A model generated the notes under the pieces. It was not told where the DNA came from. It made no database searches and was given only the letters and a program-made list of their open reading frames with translations. Below are positions 634 to 58,182 of a stretch of 64,000 nucleotides of DNA, in pieces. Made by a program: the position numbers and the translations under genes. Location: positions 5,830,484 through 5,894,483 of the forward strand of contig NC_133218.1 in the NCBI RefSeq assembly GCF_040436345.1. Reading direction: 5' to 3'. Each line of letters opens with the position of its first letter. The first letter of the stretch is position 1. This DNA is from Pagrus major. Taxonomy: Eukaryota; Chordata; Actinopteri; Spariformes; Sparidae.

Positions 634-3571
634 GTAAGTTTAATCACTCTGAAACAATTCAACAGAGAGCACTTCAGTGTCACCTTGTCTCTGTTTAAGC
701 TCTCTCATCACAGTCTGGCCTCTCTTCACTGGTGGAGCATCAGCTCCTGGAGGTCTGACTGTCAGCGCATGATGCTGCTTAAAGCTGTTATTGTGCCGGT
801 AGATGCTGGCTCTGGGATGGACCCTTAAGCTGTTTTTTAAGAAGTGGCTTTAGAAGTCCTTTCTGTAATCATGTGAAGCAGATTAAGCAGCCGTCCACCG
901 TGAATCGTTTGGGGTCTCAGATAGGTTTCTCGACTAAAAGTCATTATAACGAGCTGCTGTGGAAGTGTTCAAGCAGTAAAGCATGTATAATAATATCGCT
1001 CTCGCTTTGTTTCATAAAATGCATCTGCTGTGATGTTAAAGACAAGGGTAGAAGCAGTGAAGGAATGTAACTAAGTACATTTACTCAAGTACAATTTTGA
1101 GGTACTTCTATATGTTTTTCCATTTTCTGCTACTTTATAATCCCACTTAAGTATCAATGATACTTAAGTGCATTTAATGTCAAGAGCCTTGGGGAGCAAT
1201 GGAATACATGTTACTGGATTACTGATTTAGGATACAAAATAAAAGGTAACTGTTAAGTTACAGAGGAAGTAATCAGATACAGATACATTCAGTAAAAAAG
1301 AGGATTACAAACAGGATTACAATTTTGAAATAAAGTATGATATACTTGTCTGTAACTATGCGCATGTACACATGACAACGCTACATGAGTCACACATCAT
1401 CAATCTGGTCTGAGTGAAACCAAATACGCTCGTTATTCATCTTATTGACGTCTTTTCTCTCGTCTTTATTTGCACATGTTTGGTATTGAAGTAATCCAAA
1501 AGTAACGGAAAGTAATCAAGTTACAGAGGTAGAGGTAATTAGTAACTTTATTGGAATCCATTTTTAAAGTAACCCTCCCAACCCTCAAGTTTACTCAAGT
1601 ACTATTTGTATGGGTAACTTTCATTTTTACCAAACTAATATTTTAACACAAAATCTTTACTTTTACTCAAACGTGACTTTTGAGCACTTTTTACATCACT
1701 GGGTAAAGGATGAGTTATGGCAGTATACCCAAGAAACTATTAGATAATCTGATGATAATAACCTGCACAAGCTGATATGATAGTAACATTTTTAACAAAT
1801 TTGTGTTTTCACAGACTGGATCTTACCGTATGGTGTCGGAGGAGGAGCAGGCCATGAGGTCTAAGCTGGAGCATCTGACAGTGAAGGATCATGGGCCAGT
1901 GTTTGGGCCCTGCCACAAGCTGCCCGGTCACACTGTGCAAAAGGTAAGAAATAATAACTGAAGCATATACAAATCTAATTATTTTTAAAAAGTACTGTAC
2001 TCCAGAACAAACTCGAGGTATTTGTAATTTACTTTATGAAACTTTATTCTTCATACAGCAAATAATGTACGTTTTGCTCCACTATAGTTGTCTGACAGAG
2101 TTGCTGGCTACCTTTCAGATTCCAGTTTTTCAGAATCCTCCTGTCTAGTTATAACATGTATCTTCACATGTGTTGATGCCGGATGTTTGTGATAAACTAA
2201 AGGATGAGTTCCTTTATGTGTTGAGAAAAAATCTCCTCCTTCTTCAGCTAAATAAACTCTTTGAAAACCTTCTGGGATTGGCTGGAAAATGTTTCATCCC
2301 AAAGCTGAAAACAGGCTGTTTATAGGTTTTGAATACTTCTTCCACCACATTTGTCTGATGTGTTTGATGTCATTTTGTTTTTGTCTCTTTTTCCTGCAGG
2401 CGAAGGATGAGCTGAATGAGACGGATGAGAGGCGGGCGTCGTCGCTGAAGGACCTGCGGGCCATGATGAAGGAGAGAGCAGCGGAGGGAGACGACCTGGC
2501 CAAATTGGTGGTGGAGCGTTTTGGGGACAAACCAGACTCTCTTCTTCTGCGCTTCCTCAGAGCTCGCAAGTTTGACGTTGTCAGATCCCACGAGCTCATG
2601 AAGGGTTGGTAGCAGAAGTTCAAAAATCTTTGTATCAGTGATTTTTATTTCATTGTCAGATATTGGAAGTGATTTGCTTTCATTCGGTGTCTGCAAACAT
2701 TTTCAAATAGTTTCAGTAATTGAGGGCGAGACCTCGTTTGTGCTCCTCGTTTGCATGAGTCCTGCCCATCACTGAGACAGCGAGGCATGTGTTCATTAAT
2801 TGGGGGCTTTTAAATGCTTCTGAGTTTCCCCTGACAAAGACCTCCTTTGTGTCCAAATGGGACAGCAAGTTTACTTCACTTGTGAACCCACAGTGTTCTC
2901 CTGGGAACTGATTGTGTCGGTCTGGGAGAGGAGATGAGATTAAAAAGTGGTTTTGAAGAGTTGTTTGACGCTCAGAGGACAAAATACCATGCTGATGACT
3001 TGCTTGTGTTTCTGTATGTGCTTAAAAAACTGTATTTTTAATTTAAGTAGTGCATTTAAAATCTTTCTGAAGTAAAAGTGCAAAAGCATTTGCATCAAAA
3101 TATACTTGAATTTGAAAATGTAAAAGTGCCAATTCAAAGTTATGTATATAAAACCCCAACATTAATTAACACTGACCACTACTGTGACCTTCAATCAAAT
3201 TTGGACCAAAGAATCTGCTTTGAAGGCTTCCTTCTCCCTTCATTTTTAAATTTAAACTTAAGTCTATTTCCCTGGACATTAATATTAGATGTAAACTGAA
3301 CCAAAACTCCAGCTGAAGCCCCGGGCTCTAACCAGATCTCTGGCTAAAAAAATACCTAGAATCAGACTAAATTTACTTGGTCAGGGCAGACAAATGTCAT
3401 TGTACTGTATTTTTTTCTTACTGTTGCTGTGAGATTATTTGGTCGTCACAATGACACAAGAAAACACACATTTATGAATATGGATCAGAACTTGTTAGTG
3501 TGAGAGGGGAATGCGATGTGAACTTGTTTCGTGGGGTTAATTGCTACTGGCGAGTAAAACACAGAACACAC

Positions 3572-3618
<47 letters not shown>

Positions 3619-3780
3619 CACACAACCACACACACTCTGGGTTAATTGGTGCCTTGGTATGAGGAGGCTTAGAGCTACACTGTAGATGCACTGAGACAGT
3701 GGTGTCATTGTGTTTGGCACTAAACAACCTTCACTGTACACAAAGGGTCTGTGGACCATTAGTGCCACATAACAGAATGC

Positions 3781-3866
<86 letters not shown>

Positions 3867-5289
3867 TCTAGGCTATGTGCGCTTCAGGAAGGAGTATCCT
3901 GAGCTGTTTGAGAACCTGACCCCTGAGGCGGTCCGCAGCACCATCGAGGCCGGTTACCCTGTGGTTCTGCCCAGCAGGGACAAGTATGGCCGTGTGGTCC
4001 TGCTCTTCAACATTGAGAACTGGGACCTGGAGGAGATCACATTCGATGAGGTAGCTGTAGATCAACCTCACAGAGCGCAGCAGCACCTCTTTGATATATA
4101 TGACCAAGAAAAGGGACTTACTCTACTGAAAATGTCTTTGTCTGTGTGTCACAGATCTTAAGAGCGTACTGTGTGATCCTGGAGAAGCTGCTGGAGAATG
4201 AAGAAACCCAGATTAATGGCTTTGTCCTGATTGAGAACTTTAAGGGCTTCACCATGCAGCACGCATCAGGGATTAAACCGGCTGAGCTCAAGAAGATGGT
4301 GGACATGCTGCAGGTCAGAACAGACACACAAGGAAAGCTGAGAATTGTTTCATGTGCAACCTCAGAGCTGTTTTTAAAAATATTTTGGTGTGTTTTTATG
4401 TAGGACTCGTTCCCAGCCCGTTTCAAGGCGGTCCATGTCACTCACCAGCCCTGGTACTTCACCACTACGTACAACGTGGTCAAACCCTTCATGAAGAGCA
4501 AGCTGCTGGAGAGGGTATGGATGGAGGACATGTCCCATTAACGCTTTAATCTAAATCTGATTTTCAGATTTACTGTTAAAACTGTTTTATCCGAATCGTA
4601 CGGAAACTCATTGCTGCCAAGCCAGAAAACAAAAACAGATCAGTATCACGTTTTAACATGAAAGGTTTTACCTTATAACAATACATTTTTTTCTTGTAAC
4701 ATGAAACATTTTATGTTATAACAGATATCTTATTGTTATAAAATAGAATGTTTCACTTTAAATAACACATTATAACCAGATATTTTGACGTTATATTATC
4801 ACATTATAATGTGAAACACTGTAGAAACAATAAGTTATCACGTTAAAACATTAGGAGGTTAATGTTAAGATAAAAATGAGGCTATATTTCAGGCTATATA
4901 CAAGAAAACATTCTTGTTATAACTATATAAGCTGTCACAATACAAGATGAATAGTTCATTGTTATAATGTGGTTAGACTGTATGTTATTAAGTGGAAATA
5001 TCTTTCAATATCTAACATGAAAAACATGCTACTACAACAACAAAATGTTCACGTTATAACATGATAATGACCCGTTTTTCTTCTTCTGGTGGTAAATTTG
5101 CTCCAGTCATCTCCTCTGAACACTGTTTCTAACTCTCCTCAGGTCTTTGTTCATGGTGACGAGCTGGACAACTACGTCAAAGAATTCAACGCAGACATCC
5201 TGCCTGCAGACTTCGATGGTAAAGCCCCGGTCTCTGACTGCCAGGCCATTGCCAACAAGGTTTTCGGCTCTGAAGACACTGCTCTTTGA
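625..5289 (+). CDS. rlbp1: Retinaldehyde-binding protein 1 (CRALBP), complete, 7 coding exons
   Basis: Join 625-633, 1815-1943, 2400-2604, 3872-4050, 4155-4313, 4404-4514, 5143-5289: 312 aa in one frame, close to the 317 aa of human RLBP1. The family protein is a cytosolic carrier of 11-cis-retinal/retinol in RPE and Muller glia and acts in the visual cycle. Seen here: an N-terminal segment with DHGPVFGPC (about residues 27-35), a CRAL-TRIO_N helix region (about 47-115, [13 protein letters not shown]), and the CRAL-TRIO lipid pocket (about 135-290) with [30 protein letters not shown] and [16 protein letters not shown]. The Arg in SFPARFK (residue 233) lines up with human R234, a retinal-disease position. 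The protein ends in DTAL-Phe-less form, shorter than the mammalian tail. Start chosen because ATG GCT GCT runs straight into a strong donor (gtaagt) in the correct phase. Whether this is the a or b teleost duplicate cannot be told here. Confidence 0.96.
1058..1705. repeat. Nested teleost 'ACTCAAGTAC' repeat in rlbp1 intron 1
   Basis: The left end (about 1058-1140, GGAATGTAACTAAGTACATT) and right end (about 1590-1705, TTTACTTTTACTCAAACGTG) look like the two halves of one element family that recurs at 12405 and 13475. The middle (1150-1580) resembles another common fish repeat (GTAATCCAAAAGTAAC). Boundaries are approximate. Confidence 0.65.
1815..1943 (+). CDS. rlbp1: rlbp1 coding exon 2
   Basis: Acceptor tttcacag, donor gtaaga. 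Codes residues 4-46 ([12 protein letters not shown] ... [11 protein letters not shown] ... TVQK), phase 0 at both ends, matching human GTFRMVPEEE... . Confidence 0.95.
2400..2604 (+). CDS. rlbp1: rlbp1 coding exon 3
   Basis: Acceptor tttcctgcag, donor gttggt (weak but in the right phase). Codes [12 protein letters not shown] through [15 protein letters not shown]; the last Gly codon is split with exon 4. Confidence 0.94.
3566..3635 (+). repeat. (CA)n microsatellite in rlbp1 intron 3
   Basis: About 70 nt of CA dinucleotides with three interruptions (CG, CG, AACC). It pairs in antisense with the (GT)n run 150 nt further downstream in the same intron. Confidence 0.97.
3784..3864 (+). repeat. 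(GT)n microsatellite at the rlbp1 exon 4 splice acceptor
   Basis: An uninterrupted TG run of 81 nt ending seven bases before the exon 4 boundary (GTGT-cctctag-exon). It occupies the place of the polypyrimidine tract. Confidence 0.97.
3872..4050 (+). CDS. rlbp1: rlbp1 coding exon 4
   Basis: Starts after cctctag, directly preceded by an 81-nt GT run. Codes [20 protein letters not shown] through EEITFDE; donor gtagct. Confidence 0.95.
4155..4313 (+). CDS. rlbp1: rlbp1 coding exon 5
   Basis: Acceptor gtgtcacag, donor gtcaga, 53 whole codons ([12 protein letters not shown] ... KKMVDMLQ), core of the CRAL-TRIO fold. Confidence 0.96.
4404..4514 (+). CDS. rlbp1: rlbp1 coding exon 6
   Basis: Acceptor tttatgtag, donor gtatgg, 37 whole codons ([11 protein letters not shown] ... 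[11 protein letters not shown]), nearly identical to human. Confidence 0.96.
5143..5289 (+). CDS. rlbp1: rlbp1 last coding exon
   Basis: Acceptor actctcctcag; [15 protein letters not shown] ... [12 protein letters not shown] then TGA at 5287-5289. Confidence 0.95.
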   Translation, partial: VFVHGDELDNYVKEFNADILPADFDGKAPVSDCQAIANKVFGSEDTAL

Positions 5290-11993: not shown

Positions 11994-27093
<15,100 letters not shown>

Positions 27094-30441: not shown

Positions 30442-32820
30442 CGTTCGAGCTTTATGTCAGTCAGTTTCCACGCCCCCTATCCGTGAAACGTTACAATGAG
30501 TGATTTTCTATTTATTATATTTCATTTTTAATAAGAGTAATGTATGTTTTTGTCGTGGTGTATCTTTTTATTACAAAATAGGCTTCGATAGGCCGAATCA
30601 AATCATTTCACAACATTTCCTATGTGTGTAGATAATCATTTTAGTACGTTCGACACAAAATCGACCAGTTCCTTTCTGAACGTGACAGGAACGTGAGCAG
30701 AAACCTGTTACATAACCTTTCATATATGTTCATATATGTCCTGGAATGTACCAGCACTTAAGTTGTACTTCACTCGCTACCACTCTTTGGTCAGGATTTC
30801 TTTATCAGAAGTTTAATTTTAAATTCTTCATCCACTCAAGGGCTTGCACATACACTGTAAGGCATGGAAAGTGTAAATTTTAAAGTACTAGCTACTTACT
30901 GTATGTACAGTATGCTGCTGTTTGGTTTATTTAATTGATCACAGCTTTAAAGTGATACATCCTGCAGAAGAGTGTTATTGGGACAAGAACAACAGAAGAT
31001 TTAGTCCCTGCTGCCAATACACCTAAACATCCACTAGGTGGCGACAGAGTTTAACATGAAGTTCTGAACACCAGGGATGAACAGCGAAATACAGTAAAAT
31101 AAAGTTGAATGATGCCTTAATTCCCTGTCAAACAAAGAATTGCAATTTCTAAGATAAATGTTATGATGATGCTTTGGACTGTCAGAGATCACGAGTTTTG
31201 TACCTATGTTTCTGGTTATTTTTAGCCAATTGCCATATTTTTCACCTATACCCATTTATAGTAATGATTAAAATATAATATAATAATAAAGTACTTATCA
31301 ATCACTTTTAAAAACAAAGTGCATGGTTGAACCAGGACTGAATCATGTCATTTCAGGACTGTTATGAGGCACATAAAATTAGATTAGTAACATAAACTAA
31401 AATTCATTTAATAAAATACCCAAAAATAACAAAAGATAAAAACAATAATAAATACAAACAGGGGAGTTGGAAATAAAGATGTATGCTAGTAGAATTTAAA
31501 CTTTAACTTTTTGAGAAGCGATTTAAAAGATTTCACTGATTCTGCGAGTCTCAAATCTTCAAGTCTATACAATTTAACTATGTCAGTTTCACTTTTCTGC
31601 CAAAAAATGTGAGATCAGAGTGAAATTCACTGCTGGAAACAAGATAAATCATTCCTATGTAGCTGCATTTGAATCAGAATCTCTGGTGGAACATATATAG
31701 TCTTACACGTTATGATAACCAACATTGATAAATGGTGAATTTATAGTTAATTAAACTAGTAAGTACTCAGTAGTAATTTCACTGTAAACAATTAGATAGT
31801 TCATATACAATACATTCATATAAATAATGTGTCAAGCAGTTATAAAGATTTATAAACATCAGTTTCAACTTTACAATAAACCATTGCCTATTAAATTTAC
31901 CATTTATTAATGATGGTTAACATGAAGTGTTGCCAAATATCCACAGTTAATGAATGATATTAATGTTTGGTGTTCACAGCCTCCTCCTGCCAGTTCCCTT
32001 GACATGGTCAGAGAAGTGGAGCTGGTTTGGCTGCACTTTGCCTGCTGAGTTCCTAAATACTTGGCAAGGGTTATATAAAGCGTTTTCCCACGGGGATTAA
32101 TTCAAAGAACCACCACACTGTTAAAACCCTCTATTCACACTTTTCTCTCAAATGTTGTGGGACTGGGACATCCTGCAGGCCTATCTTCAGACCTTATAAA
32201 TCTCACTTTTTATTTTCTTTGATACGTGTTTAAAACGCAACACGTGCTGCCCAAAATATCCTGTCAATAATCCCAAAATATCCTGTCAATAATCCCAAAA
32301 TATCCTGTCAATAATCCCAAAATATCCTGTCAATAATCCGAGAGGCCATTCACAACCCCGCCTACCCTGTCAGTGCGGGGTCGGTGGTGCCTTCACATGC
32401 TCATCATAAAACAGGTTATTTATAAAACAAATTATTAATCGTGCATTACTATCAGGAATTAGACCGTTTCATGGATTGCAGTGACTTTTCATTTTAGATA
32501 AACAGATACCAGAGATCTCGAAGTGACAGGATTAGAATATTCAAGTTTACGTGTTCACTTAGGTTGATATTAGCCCATAGTAAAATATATAGGTCTAGTC
32601 TTCAATTAAAATATATATTAACAAAGAAAGTTGGCTAATATTGAAATTTTCGCTGTTGTTTCAAGGTGTAAGAATGGCAAAAAGAAAAATGCAAGACACC
32701 TCTAAATGAACCAATAAGCAAAAATACAGAAAGTTTCAAATGTCAAACAACAAGATAATCATGAATTAAACTGCTAGGGAAAGTTCCTTATATTACTGTC
32801 TCTATCTGTTTACCGACATG
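30442..32820. other. abhd2/mfge8 intergenic interval
   Basis: Divergent genes on either side. No ORF of note. It contains the 22-bp tandem array at 32250 and otherwise AT-rich sequence. Confidence 0.6.
32250..32337. repeat. Tandem array, four perfect 22-bp copies
   Basis: Unit core CCCAAAATATCCTGTCAATA; copies begin at 32250, 32272, 32294 and 32316 with no spacers. The E-box CACGTG (32241-32246) sits directly upstream. It lies about 740 bp before the mfge8 start codon. Confidence 0.95.
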
Positions 32821-56245: not shown

Positions 56246-56285
<40 letters not shown>

Positions 56286-56302: not shown

Positions 56303-56626
56303 CTACTCAAACTCGGCTTCGAAGAGGAGTCTCTCGATTTTCATCCTGACGACTGACTTTTTCTGAGGGGACAGCTTTTTAAACATTTTCACAAGGTTCA
56401 TGAAATAGAATTCATCGCAGTCTTGTGGTCTTTCAAGGTTTGTCTGTACAGTTCGGTCACATTTTGAAGGCTCTGGCTCCGTACTCCTCCTCATCATGTC
56501 CACAGTGTCCAGTTCATTTGACTTGGGGATGACTGGAGTCACTGACTGGCTGCTGCTCGCTCCTTGGCCGTCTTGGTCGTCTGTATCCGAGATGATGGTT
56601 ATTTCCTCACTGTCATCTTTGAGCTC
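56303..56626 (-). CDS. Finger/BESS gene, last exon (acidic region and BESS-like motif)
   Basis: Acceptor tcctcacag. ELKDDSEEITIISDTDDQDG ... ERPQDCDEFYFMNLVKMFKK ... LLFEAEFE, TAG at 56305-56303. Confidence 0.85.
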   Translation of the reverse strand, partial: ELKDDSEEITIISDTDDQDGQGASSSQSVTPVIPKSNELDTVDMMRRSTEPEPSKCDRTVQTNLERPQDCDEFYFMNLVKMFKKLSPQKKSVVRMKIERLLFEAEFE

Positions 56627-58182
56627 CTGTGAGGACAACAAAAAAGTTTTTTTTAAGAAAGAAAAAAAAGAAAATCTTTAGGGTTTAATTGCAGATCTAG
56701 TTACATAGCCAATCAAAGTGAGTTTTCCCCCACATGTCCTTAAGAAACATCTGCAGCCATAATAGATAACATGACACAATGAAAACACGCAAAGGAGGTT
56801 TTAGAAAACTGCTTTAAGAAATCTGGAAAAGTGTCATGACAAACAGTATGCATTCAGGAGACATGAATGCACATCTTTTGTGACAAAAAGCTCACTTTAA
56901 AGTGCATCAAACGTGAATACAGCCTTACTATGTCATTTGAAAGGACGTTACTCTCTCCAGGAGTCGGCAATGGAGCAGTTTGAAACGCCTTTTTTGACGC
57001 CTCTGTCTGTAGTTGGGATGATTTCTCAGCTCTCTTCTGTTGGTTATGGCGGCAGGCTAGTAGATGGTCAGTGAAATCTCTTTTCTTTATCAGTGTGGCT
57101 GAGCAGTACAAACAGTGGTAATGCCGCAGTTTTCTGCACTGCAGCCCACATATTAGGATCGTGTACTCTGAAATATGAACAACACATTAAATTGGGAAAG
57201 AGTTAGTAATGACTCATTTTGTTGACACTGTTAATCAATCATAAATGGGAGAATGTAAAAACATTACCCTCAAAGGAAACGGCTCTCTTTAGATGATATT
57301 TCATATGATTCTCAGCTTTGTGTAGGTAATGTGTGGGGTTGAAATCAACAGGTGAACATATTGGACAATGATATCTGCTTGGCGTGCAGCAGTTGACGCA
57401 TTTTTTCAGAGTGTGAATGGACAATCCCTTCTTGATCGATGTATGAACCTGGAATAGATAAAACATGAGTTATTAATAATACTGAGACATCCAGGAACTA
57501 CATGCCTACGAAGAGCCATGTTGTCTGCTTTGGTTGTAAGAGAAATACAGCCAATTTAAAAATGTGAGTTACTTAGACAGTATTGTGATAGGACGATATA
57601 ATTAATATCTAAACATCTGTTATTATGGCAAATGCAAAGCAAAACAACAACAATGCACATGTGTGTTTTCATTTCAATGAACAAGCGTCTGCTTCTGATT
57701 TTAACAGTTTTAGCCCTTTTGTTTCTACAGAATGACTTTTTAAAGGCTAACGATATTAGTCGGCTAGCCTTGCTAACTTTTGGCTACGAATGATGCCGGG
57801 TGTTAAGTTTCTATCGTGTTAAACGTGTTTTTCCTTTACATTTTTAAGAATAGCATTATGTCTTCGGATCTCCTAAATCACCACTATGTGCTTTGGAGGA
57901 AATTCAAAAGTTAACACCAACAAATACACATTAATTTCATTTGCGTTCGTTAGCTGGCTAACGTTACCTGCGCGATAACTATGTTAGCTAAACAATTAGC
58001 TAATAGCTTGGCGAAGTGAAGTCAACAAGACAACTTCTCTGAGGTATTTCATCTACTACATGGCTGAAAAGTGAGACTAACACGACGGTCACACATTCAT
58101 AAGTTGTTATAATTATAAAGATATGATAATCATTGACTTTGTTCGTGTGTTATCTTACTTTTACCTGTCGACCACTGTCCAT
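56303..58182 (-). CDS. Uncharacterised protein with Cys/His finger units and C-terminal BESS-like motif, complete, 4 exons
   Basis: Join (complement) 58182-58165, 57448-57268, 57167-56929, 56626-56303: 253 aa. I do not recognise a named orthologue. Seen: two related finger-like units, unit 1 with C23-x2-C26, C34-x2-C37, H54, H58 (YHCPICSP core) and unit 2 with C73-x3-C77, C85-x2-C88, H101, C105/H107 (YHCLYCSA core); a basic Gln/Lys-rich linker (about 108-130); an acidic/Ser stretch (EEITIISDTDDQDG, about 153-166); and a C-terminal segment about 216-253 (FYFMNLVKMFKKLSPQKKSV V, MKIERLL) shaped like a BESS protein-interaction motif. This suggests a nuclear DNA- or chromatin-binding protein, by inference only. 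All junctions are GT/AG and in phase. The start is the ATG in GAACGATGG before donor gtaaaa. Confidence 0.8.
56929..57167 (-). CDS. Finger/BESS gene, exon 3 (finger unit 2)
   Basis: Acceptor catatttcag, donor gtaagg. EYTILICGLQCRKLRHYHCL YC ... DHLLACRHNQQKRAEK ... ESNVLSNDI. Confidence 0.83.
57268..57448 (-). CDS. Finger/BESS gene, exon 2 (finger unit 1)
   Basis: Acceptor tctattccag, donor gtaatg. VHTSIKKGLSIHTLKKCVNC C ... YHCPICSPVDFNPTHYLHK. Confidence 0.85.
58165..58182 (-). CDS. Finger/BESS gene, coding exon 1
   Basis: Codes MDSGRQ only; donor gtaaaa. Tiny, found by phase matching to exon 2. Confidence 0.65.

Follow-up and report, generated by a model that had tools for sequence, protein, structure and literature searches.

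Two features of fish introns are easily conflated, namely a GU repeat that replaces the polypyrimidine tract and a pair of complementary repeats that bridges the intron. The former has a human precedent in the GU acceptor of apoA-II intron 2 (which our literature search did not find), and the latter is reportedly found in the zebrafish (AC)m-(GU)n introns of Lin et al. 2016 (Genome Res.), whose splicing is said to be independent of U2AF2. According to papers describing the bridged introns, AC lies near the donor, GU lies near the acceptor, and the fold joins the splice sites (PMC9024468; PMC9198270). As for GU repeats at human splice sites, runs of at least 12 UG repeats are overrepresented in their vicinity (PMC12276007), the UG tract of CFTR intron 8 is a known case involving exon 9 (cited in PMC12276007), and in TMEM175 UG repeats are found inside the pyrimidine tract (PMC6093180). 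Herein, we compare both features with intron 3 of rlbp1, the gene that opens, on the + strand, a 64-kb stretch of Pagrus major DNA (the window, by which we mean the whole stretch that was analysed), and thereby set the two apart.

We consider it probable that the TG microsatellite at the end of this intron substitutes for the polypyrimidine tract, with the AC array further upstream being an independent neighbour whose pairing with the TG run may modulate access to it. The gene model has seven coding exons (625-633, 1815-1943, 2400-2604, 3872-4050, 4155-4313, 4404-4514, and 5143-5289), from the first of which the introns are numbered, and together they give a continuous coding sequence (CDS) of 312 amino acids. 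Human CRALBP matches the encoded protein with an E value of about 1e-140, and the alignment runs free of gaps across the junction of exons 3 and 4. The features in and around intron 3 are the following.

2400..2604, + strand: rlbp1 coding exon 3 (continuous CDS, human CRALBP match)
2605..3871, + strand: rlbp1 intron 3, 1267 nucleotides (nt), from the gene model
2605..2610, + strand: donor AGG/GTTGGT, matrix score 3.64, the weakest of the six rlbp1 donors (others 6.14-10.29)
3559..3862, + strand: predicted AC/GU hairpin, loop about 150 nt (in-silico fold only)
3566-3635, + strand (transcribed strand): interrupted AC tract, 35 copies with 88% matches in Tandem Repeats Finder (TRF), starting 961 nt past the donor
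3770..3773, + strand: candidate branch site TAAC (A3772), from a motif scan, 99 nt from the intron end
3784-3864, + strand (transcribed strand): pure TG run, 40.5 copies with 100% matches (TRF), 81 nt without a fault, at the position of the polypyrimidine tract
3865..3871, + strand: acceptor end CCTCTAG, following the TG run and directly preceding exon 4
3872..4050, + strand: rlbp1 coding exon 4, 179 nt, from the CDS

The longest pure run inside the AC tract is 35 nt (3577-3611). TRF and the gene model bear out an earlier note on this DNA in its tract coordinates, in the TG run ending seven bases before exon 4, and in CCTCTAG as the acceptor context.

Splice sites were scored with simple matrices built on vertebrate frequencies. 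With these, the intron 3 acceptor reaches 8.6, the highest score among the 60 AGs scored in the intron, and the other five rlbp1 acceptors have scores of 4.5, 8.7, 10.1, 11.3, and 15.8. Its upstream sequence is poor in uridine runs: the longest T run in the 60 nt upstream is 1, versus 3-5 at the other five acceptors. A pyrimidine run of more than 5 nt is, by the same measure, likewise absent at three of those five. Four TNAY motifs follow position 3640, and TAAC was chosen as the candidate branch site because A3772 alone is not followed by a usable AG ahead of the acceptor (that is, before 3870). The nearest AG upstream of the acceptor, at 3774, lies two bases past A3772 and was discounted as too close, since AGs are usually used only if they lie more than 8-12 nt past the branch point (PMC5224494). 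We infer that A3772 serves as the branch site and that AG 3870 is used. An alternative acceptor at CAG/3776 (CAG 3773-3775) was rejected, as it has a matrix score of 2.43 and human CRALBP lacks such an insert. The frame is open across the entire TG run into exon 4 (open reading frame, ORF, 3763-4161), and use of this CAG would add 96 nt, i.e., 32 Cys-Val-rich residues without a stop.

The two tracts are complementary, and their predicted pairing is strong. All folds are ViennaRNA predictions for naked RNA in which proteins are ignored. The best structure of the whole intron contains 74 AC-GT pairs (68 are expected in the ensemble), the longest uninterrupted helix being 59 bp between 3566-3624 and 3798-3856, and keeping the AC tract single-stranded would cost 116 kcal/mol in ensemble energy. 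A 341-nt piece has a z-score of -9.6 relative to 100 dinucleotide shuffles, none of which is as stable, and swapping the AC tract for 100 other 70-mers from the intron gives a mean of -91.6 kcal/mol (standard deviation, sd, 4.7) versus -192.7 kcal/mol for the native sequence. The long CA/GU duplex enclosing about 150 nt that had been put forward in the earlier note is thus also what the in-silico fold predicts. A3772 is paired in 198 of 200 sampled structures; in the fold of the intron, the acceptor AG is unpaired. Equilibrium folds of the growing transcript have the tracts pairing while the GU run emerges, with 22 pairs present once 21 nt of GU are made. Pairing with the AC array could, by these models, hide the GU tract in cis.

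How the two tracts relate to each other can be read in part from the rest of the genome, for which the window's own assembly was searched (785,883,843 bases in 25 contigs). A second copy of rlbp1 is located on contig C8, with an intron 3 of 468 nt. Neither (AC)6 nor (GT)6 occurs in the 9.9-kb locus of this paralog; therefore, the tracts are not common to both rlbp1 copies. The paralog's intron 3 acceptor (AATGTGTGTCTGTTTTTTCCACCCAG) has an ordinary pyrimidine tract and a matrix score of 12.98, its donor scores 7.78, and there is a TGAC branch-site candidate 32 nt before the end of the intron. The short TGTGTGT in the acceptor suggests a possible starting point for TG expansion.

Genome-wide, there are 108 places with the pattern (GT)12YYYYYAG. 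Out of 100 listed places, 40 were read, first every fifth one and then its successor in each step, the place in rlbp1 itself being left out and its neighbour taken instead. At least nine of these 40 precede coding exons recognised by Pfam or the Protein Data Bank (PDB), namely those of SNX1, CALCRL, CDC123, TRNT1, CCDC22, integrin alpha, STRIP1, a spectrin-repeat gene, and LRRC16A. Nine is a lower bound, because 20 of the 40 downstream peptides were searched in Pfam and the remaining 20 were judged by eye. The CCDC22 match (3e-9) falls slightly under the curated Pfam cut-off (36.9 vs 39.2 bits), and the identities of integrin alpha and LRRC16A come from PDB matches, both having weak matches in Pfam. 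For one further candidate, L043, the PDB gave no match. A sampled GT array of score 84, L009, resembled an acceptor but was rejected, as by eye no coding exon follows it. The GT tracts at the nine recognised exons are 25 to about 119 nt long, that of TRNT1 measuring 81 nt, just as in rlbp1.

The search for AC arrays covered about 1300 nt on the upstream side of the GT places and 300 nt on the downstream side. At the nine recognised exons, the 1300 nt upstream contain no AC array with a score of at least 14, and hence GT acceptors in this genome are not as a rule preceded by an AC array. Over the whole sample, 4 of the 40 places have an upstream AC array with a score of at least 20 within 1300 nt, all four lacking a recognised exon (4/31); upstream AC neighbours are therefore a background feature, occurring slightly above what full independence would give (P 0.04).

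The downstream side provides an observation of its own. At three of the nine exons (integrin alpha, L053 on contig C9; STRIP1, L057 on C14; LRRC16A, L061 on C17), an AC run of 33-56 nt begins no more than about 7 nt into the downstream intron. GT at the acceptor and AC at the exon's own donor thus bracket the exon. The predicted pairing across the bracketed exons comprises 26-35 pairs. With random placement, about 0.005 donor-adjacent AC runs would be expected among nine exons (P about 3e-8, calculated post hoc and with arrays that cluster), and an AC array within 300 nt downstream is also present at 3 of the 31 other places. Donors may favour AC runs in general, and repeats that bracket an exon could favour its circularisation or skipping. 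A literature search on this point listed one paper, on sheep circRNAs, with no count for AC or GT repeats.

Taken together, we favour the following course of events for rlbp1. The TG microsatellite, with the branch site upstream of it and the acceptor AG downstream, would take over the role of the polypyrimidine tract and would be tolerated because it is half uridine and free of AG. The CCTCTAG end and exon definition would then complete recognition, much as GU-tract acceptors work elsewhere. About 150 nt upstream, the AC array would be an independent microsatellite able, through complementarity, to fold with the TG run into a strong local hairpin, one that would leave the splice sites unbridged and at most alter GU accessibility, mainly for GU binders of the TDP-43 type. 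A GU repeat indeed stands in place of the polypyrimidine tract before the AG, going by the sequence, the CDS, and homology, the last of which points to the AG being used. What the analysis itself shows is the anatomy of the intron, the complementarity of its tracts, the in-silico fold, the lack of AC near the donor, the tract-free paralog, and other GT acceptors that have no AC array upstream. The tolerance of the TG run, its origin by repeat expansion, and the access of proteins to it are, on the other hand, what we infer.

Critically speaking, several points pull in the other direction. The candidate branch site is unusually far away (99 nt) and paired in the predicted fold, the use of the exon 4 acceptor is deduced from protein homology, and the extreme pairing energy calculated for the tracts (116 kcal/mol in the ensemble) might not be neutral. 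Under independence, moreover, an AC array this good has a probability of only about 0.005 within 1267 nt. This figure comes from a sample of 272,634 nt, made up of 10-kb pieces at 20 fixed places on contigs C1-C5 together with the paralog locus and the remainder of the window, in which the probability of an AC array per 1267 nt is 0.03 at a score of at least 20 and 0.005 at a score of at least 47, the level of intron 3, at which two such arrays were seen. The first 0.61 Mb of contig C1 hold 14 distinct pure AC arrays of at least 40 nt, which makes about 0.03 in a stretch of 1267 nt. For 14 fish genomes, the density of perfect dinucleotide repeats of at least 14 bp is given as 30 to 499 per Mb, apart from a single value of 2,999 (PMC8186053). 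All in all, the co-occurrence of AC and GT in intron 3 is only mildly unusual. GT arrays are also not clearly enriched before YYYYYAG (108 places vs 86 for (AC)12YYYYYAG; P 0.07). The reversed patterns of these two give 58 and 25 places, respectively, and (GT)12YYYYYGA gives 36 (85 when reversed). The GA control is confounded by the rarity of CpG in CGA, and its reversed form (85) nearly equals the signal; given the confounded controls and the P of 0.07, we therefore claim no GT enrichment. Lastly, the alignment of the paralog's acceptor flank with that of rlbp1 is not significant (740 of 9137 window 46-mers and 60 of 2000 shuffles are as good), and homology of the two flanks was rejected for that reason.

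Among the other explanations, a regulated exon survives best, and we regard it as possible but rather unlikely. Here, TDP-43-type proteins on UG and hnRNP L-type proteins on CA would set the inclusion of exon 4, with tract length and pairing tuning the outcome. We know of no alternative rlbp1 transcript, which we count against it. In its favour, TDP-43 has a very high affinity for UG repeats and blocks pUG folding (PMC12697283), associations of hnRNP L with AC and of TARDBP with GT are listed for splicing repeats (PMC13174678), and CFTR exon 9 provides a precedent (cited in PMC12276007). By our own arithmetic, the 81 nt would hold up to about seven TDP-43 molecules at a footprint of 11-12 nt (PMC12697283). 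However, AC/TG pairing would shut out both proteins.

More doubtful is a variant of the zebrafish AC/GU class, to which, or to a variant of which, the earlier note assigned intron 3. In this variant, the duplex would be required, U2AF2 would be replaced, and the acceptor would be read through structure despite the distant AC. Several points speak for it. The acceptor end has GU (the 81-nt TG run ends 7 nt before exon 4) and no U run, the predicted duplex is strong (z -9.6; 116 kcal/mol), the donor is weak (3.64), and the branch site is masked in double strand as in one class example (PMC9024468). Intron 3 also has a folding energy of -0.340 per nt, and none of 20 equally long random segments of the genome reaches so low a value (mean -0.256, sd 0.033, lowest -0.323). 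This is 33% lower than the mean; members of the class reportedly lie 50-100% below ordinary introns of equal length. The other five rlbp1 introns, which have other lengths, range from -0.17 to -0.24 per nt.

Other points speak against it. The AC tract begins 961 nt from the donor, and the longest AC alternation in the first 200 nt of the intron is 6 nt (with one mismatch allowed). Bridging through some other donor-proximal sequence was rejected: pairing of the first 100 with the last 100 intron nt yields -18.7 kcal/mol, rank 35 of 43 among windows off the AC tract (the best AC-tract window reaches -148.7 kcal/mol with the last 100 nt). The end-to-end distance of the intron is predicted at 6 steps, as compared to 14 with the AC tract blocked, but among 100 random segments 11 likewise come to 6 steps or fewer (median 17). 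When both exons are included in the fold, the donor pairs with exon 3. Nor does the hairpin bring the branch site near the AG, an idea that was rejected since, in the graph measure, the path from A3772 to the AG takes 99 steps with the stem versus 68 without it, and the stem thus fails to shorten that distance. The paralog, moreover, has neither tract, and the nine GT acceptors have no AC array within 1300 nt upstream. AC being 961 nt from the donor, the stem leaves the splice sites unbridged; both pairing and end-to-end tests came out against bridging, and with no AC near the donor we keep intron 3 out of the bridged class. Membership, as advanced in the earlier note, is not supported.

Similarly improbable, in our estimation, is a role of the AC array as a built-in antisense mask, which would pair with GU at transcription and bar TDP-43-type repressors as well as pUG folds, thereby enabling an acceptor with such a long GU run. 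If it were true, exon 4 inclusion would hinge on how long two fast-mutating arrays are relative to each other. Finally, that pUG quadruplexes of the UG run mark or delay the acceptor is highly improbable: RNAs with 24 or more GU repeats do form double pUG folds in vitro (PMC12276007) and 40 repeats could, by our own arithmetic, hold three folds, but folding in vitro is slow (half-life of 13 min or more; PMC12276007), TDP-43 binding is kinetically favoured at nuclear concentrations (PMC12697283), and the AC strand is transcribed first and can pair as GU emerges (22 pairs with 21 nt in the equilibrium folds).

The window contains some further repeats and genes. A 0.4-kb TA-rich array (14394-14801) includes (AC)10 at 14464-14483 and (GT)10 at 14732-14751 and constitutes a near-perfect inverted repeat, the arms of which (14431-14607 and 14608-14784) are 88% complementary with a spacer of 0 nt. 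At 32250-32339 there is a 22-bp minisatellite (4.1 copies, 100% matches), and at 56250-56281 a 32-nt GT run on the + strand, which is CA on the strand of the adjoining BESS-motif ORF (56303-56677). The region 20821-54486 has ORFs with EGF and F5/8 C domains and with an Xlink domain, which we take to be mfge8 and hapln3, respectively, as expected for the vertebrate rlbp1 neighbourhood; an ORF on the minus strand of that region, which has no Pfam match, is presumably abhd2-like. An Rfam scan of the window gave 0 matches at gathering score, and no relatives of rlbp1 were found in viral contigs. Elsewhere in the genome (C22:30530890-30531712), four (AC)12 runs, each followed by TCTCCAG, lie within 0.8 kb and apparently represent a locally duplicated unit.

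As rlbp1 encodes CRALBP of the visual cycle, and exon 4 has 179 nt so that its skipping would shift the frame, alleles differing in array length could matter for vision. The genome also offers a natural comparison set, consisting of rlbp1 (GT81 with upstream AC), TRNT1 (GT81 with none within 1.3 kb), and the tract-free rlbp1 paralog, with which one could test directly whether an AC partner is needed.

In comparison with known systems, rlbp1 intron 3 shares with the zebrafish class the complementary AC and GU tracts in one intron, GU at the acceptor, and a strong predicted hairpin with the branch site masked inside; it differs from that class in the AC being 961 nt away from the donor and in a stem that is not bridging. 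With the nine GT acceptors of its own genome it has in common a (GT)n of at least 25 nt followed by YYYYYAG and a coding exon (81 nt also in TRNT1), and it differs from them in having AC upstream, where they have no array of score 14 or more within 1300 nt. Like the human GU-tract acceptors (apoA-II, TMEM175, and CFTR), it has GU in or instead of the pyrimidine tract just before the AG. Compared to these, its tract is, at 81 nt, longer than is known for the human cases, its branch-site candidate lies 99 nt off, and a complementary AC array is found upstream. Most likely, intron 3 of rlbp1 is therefore an unusual but explicable pair of microsatellites.

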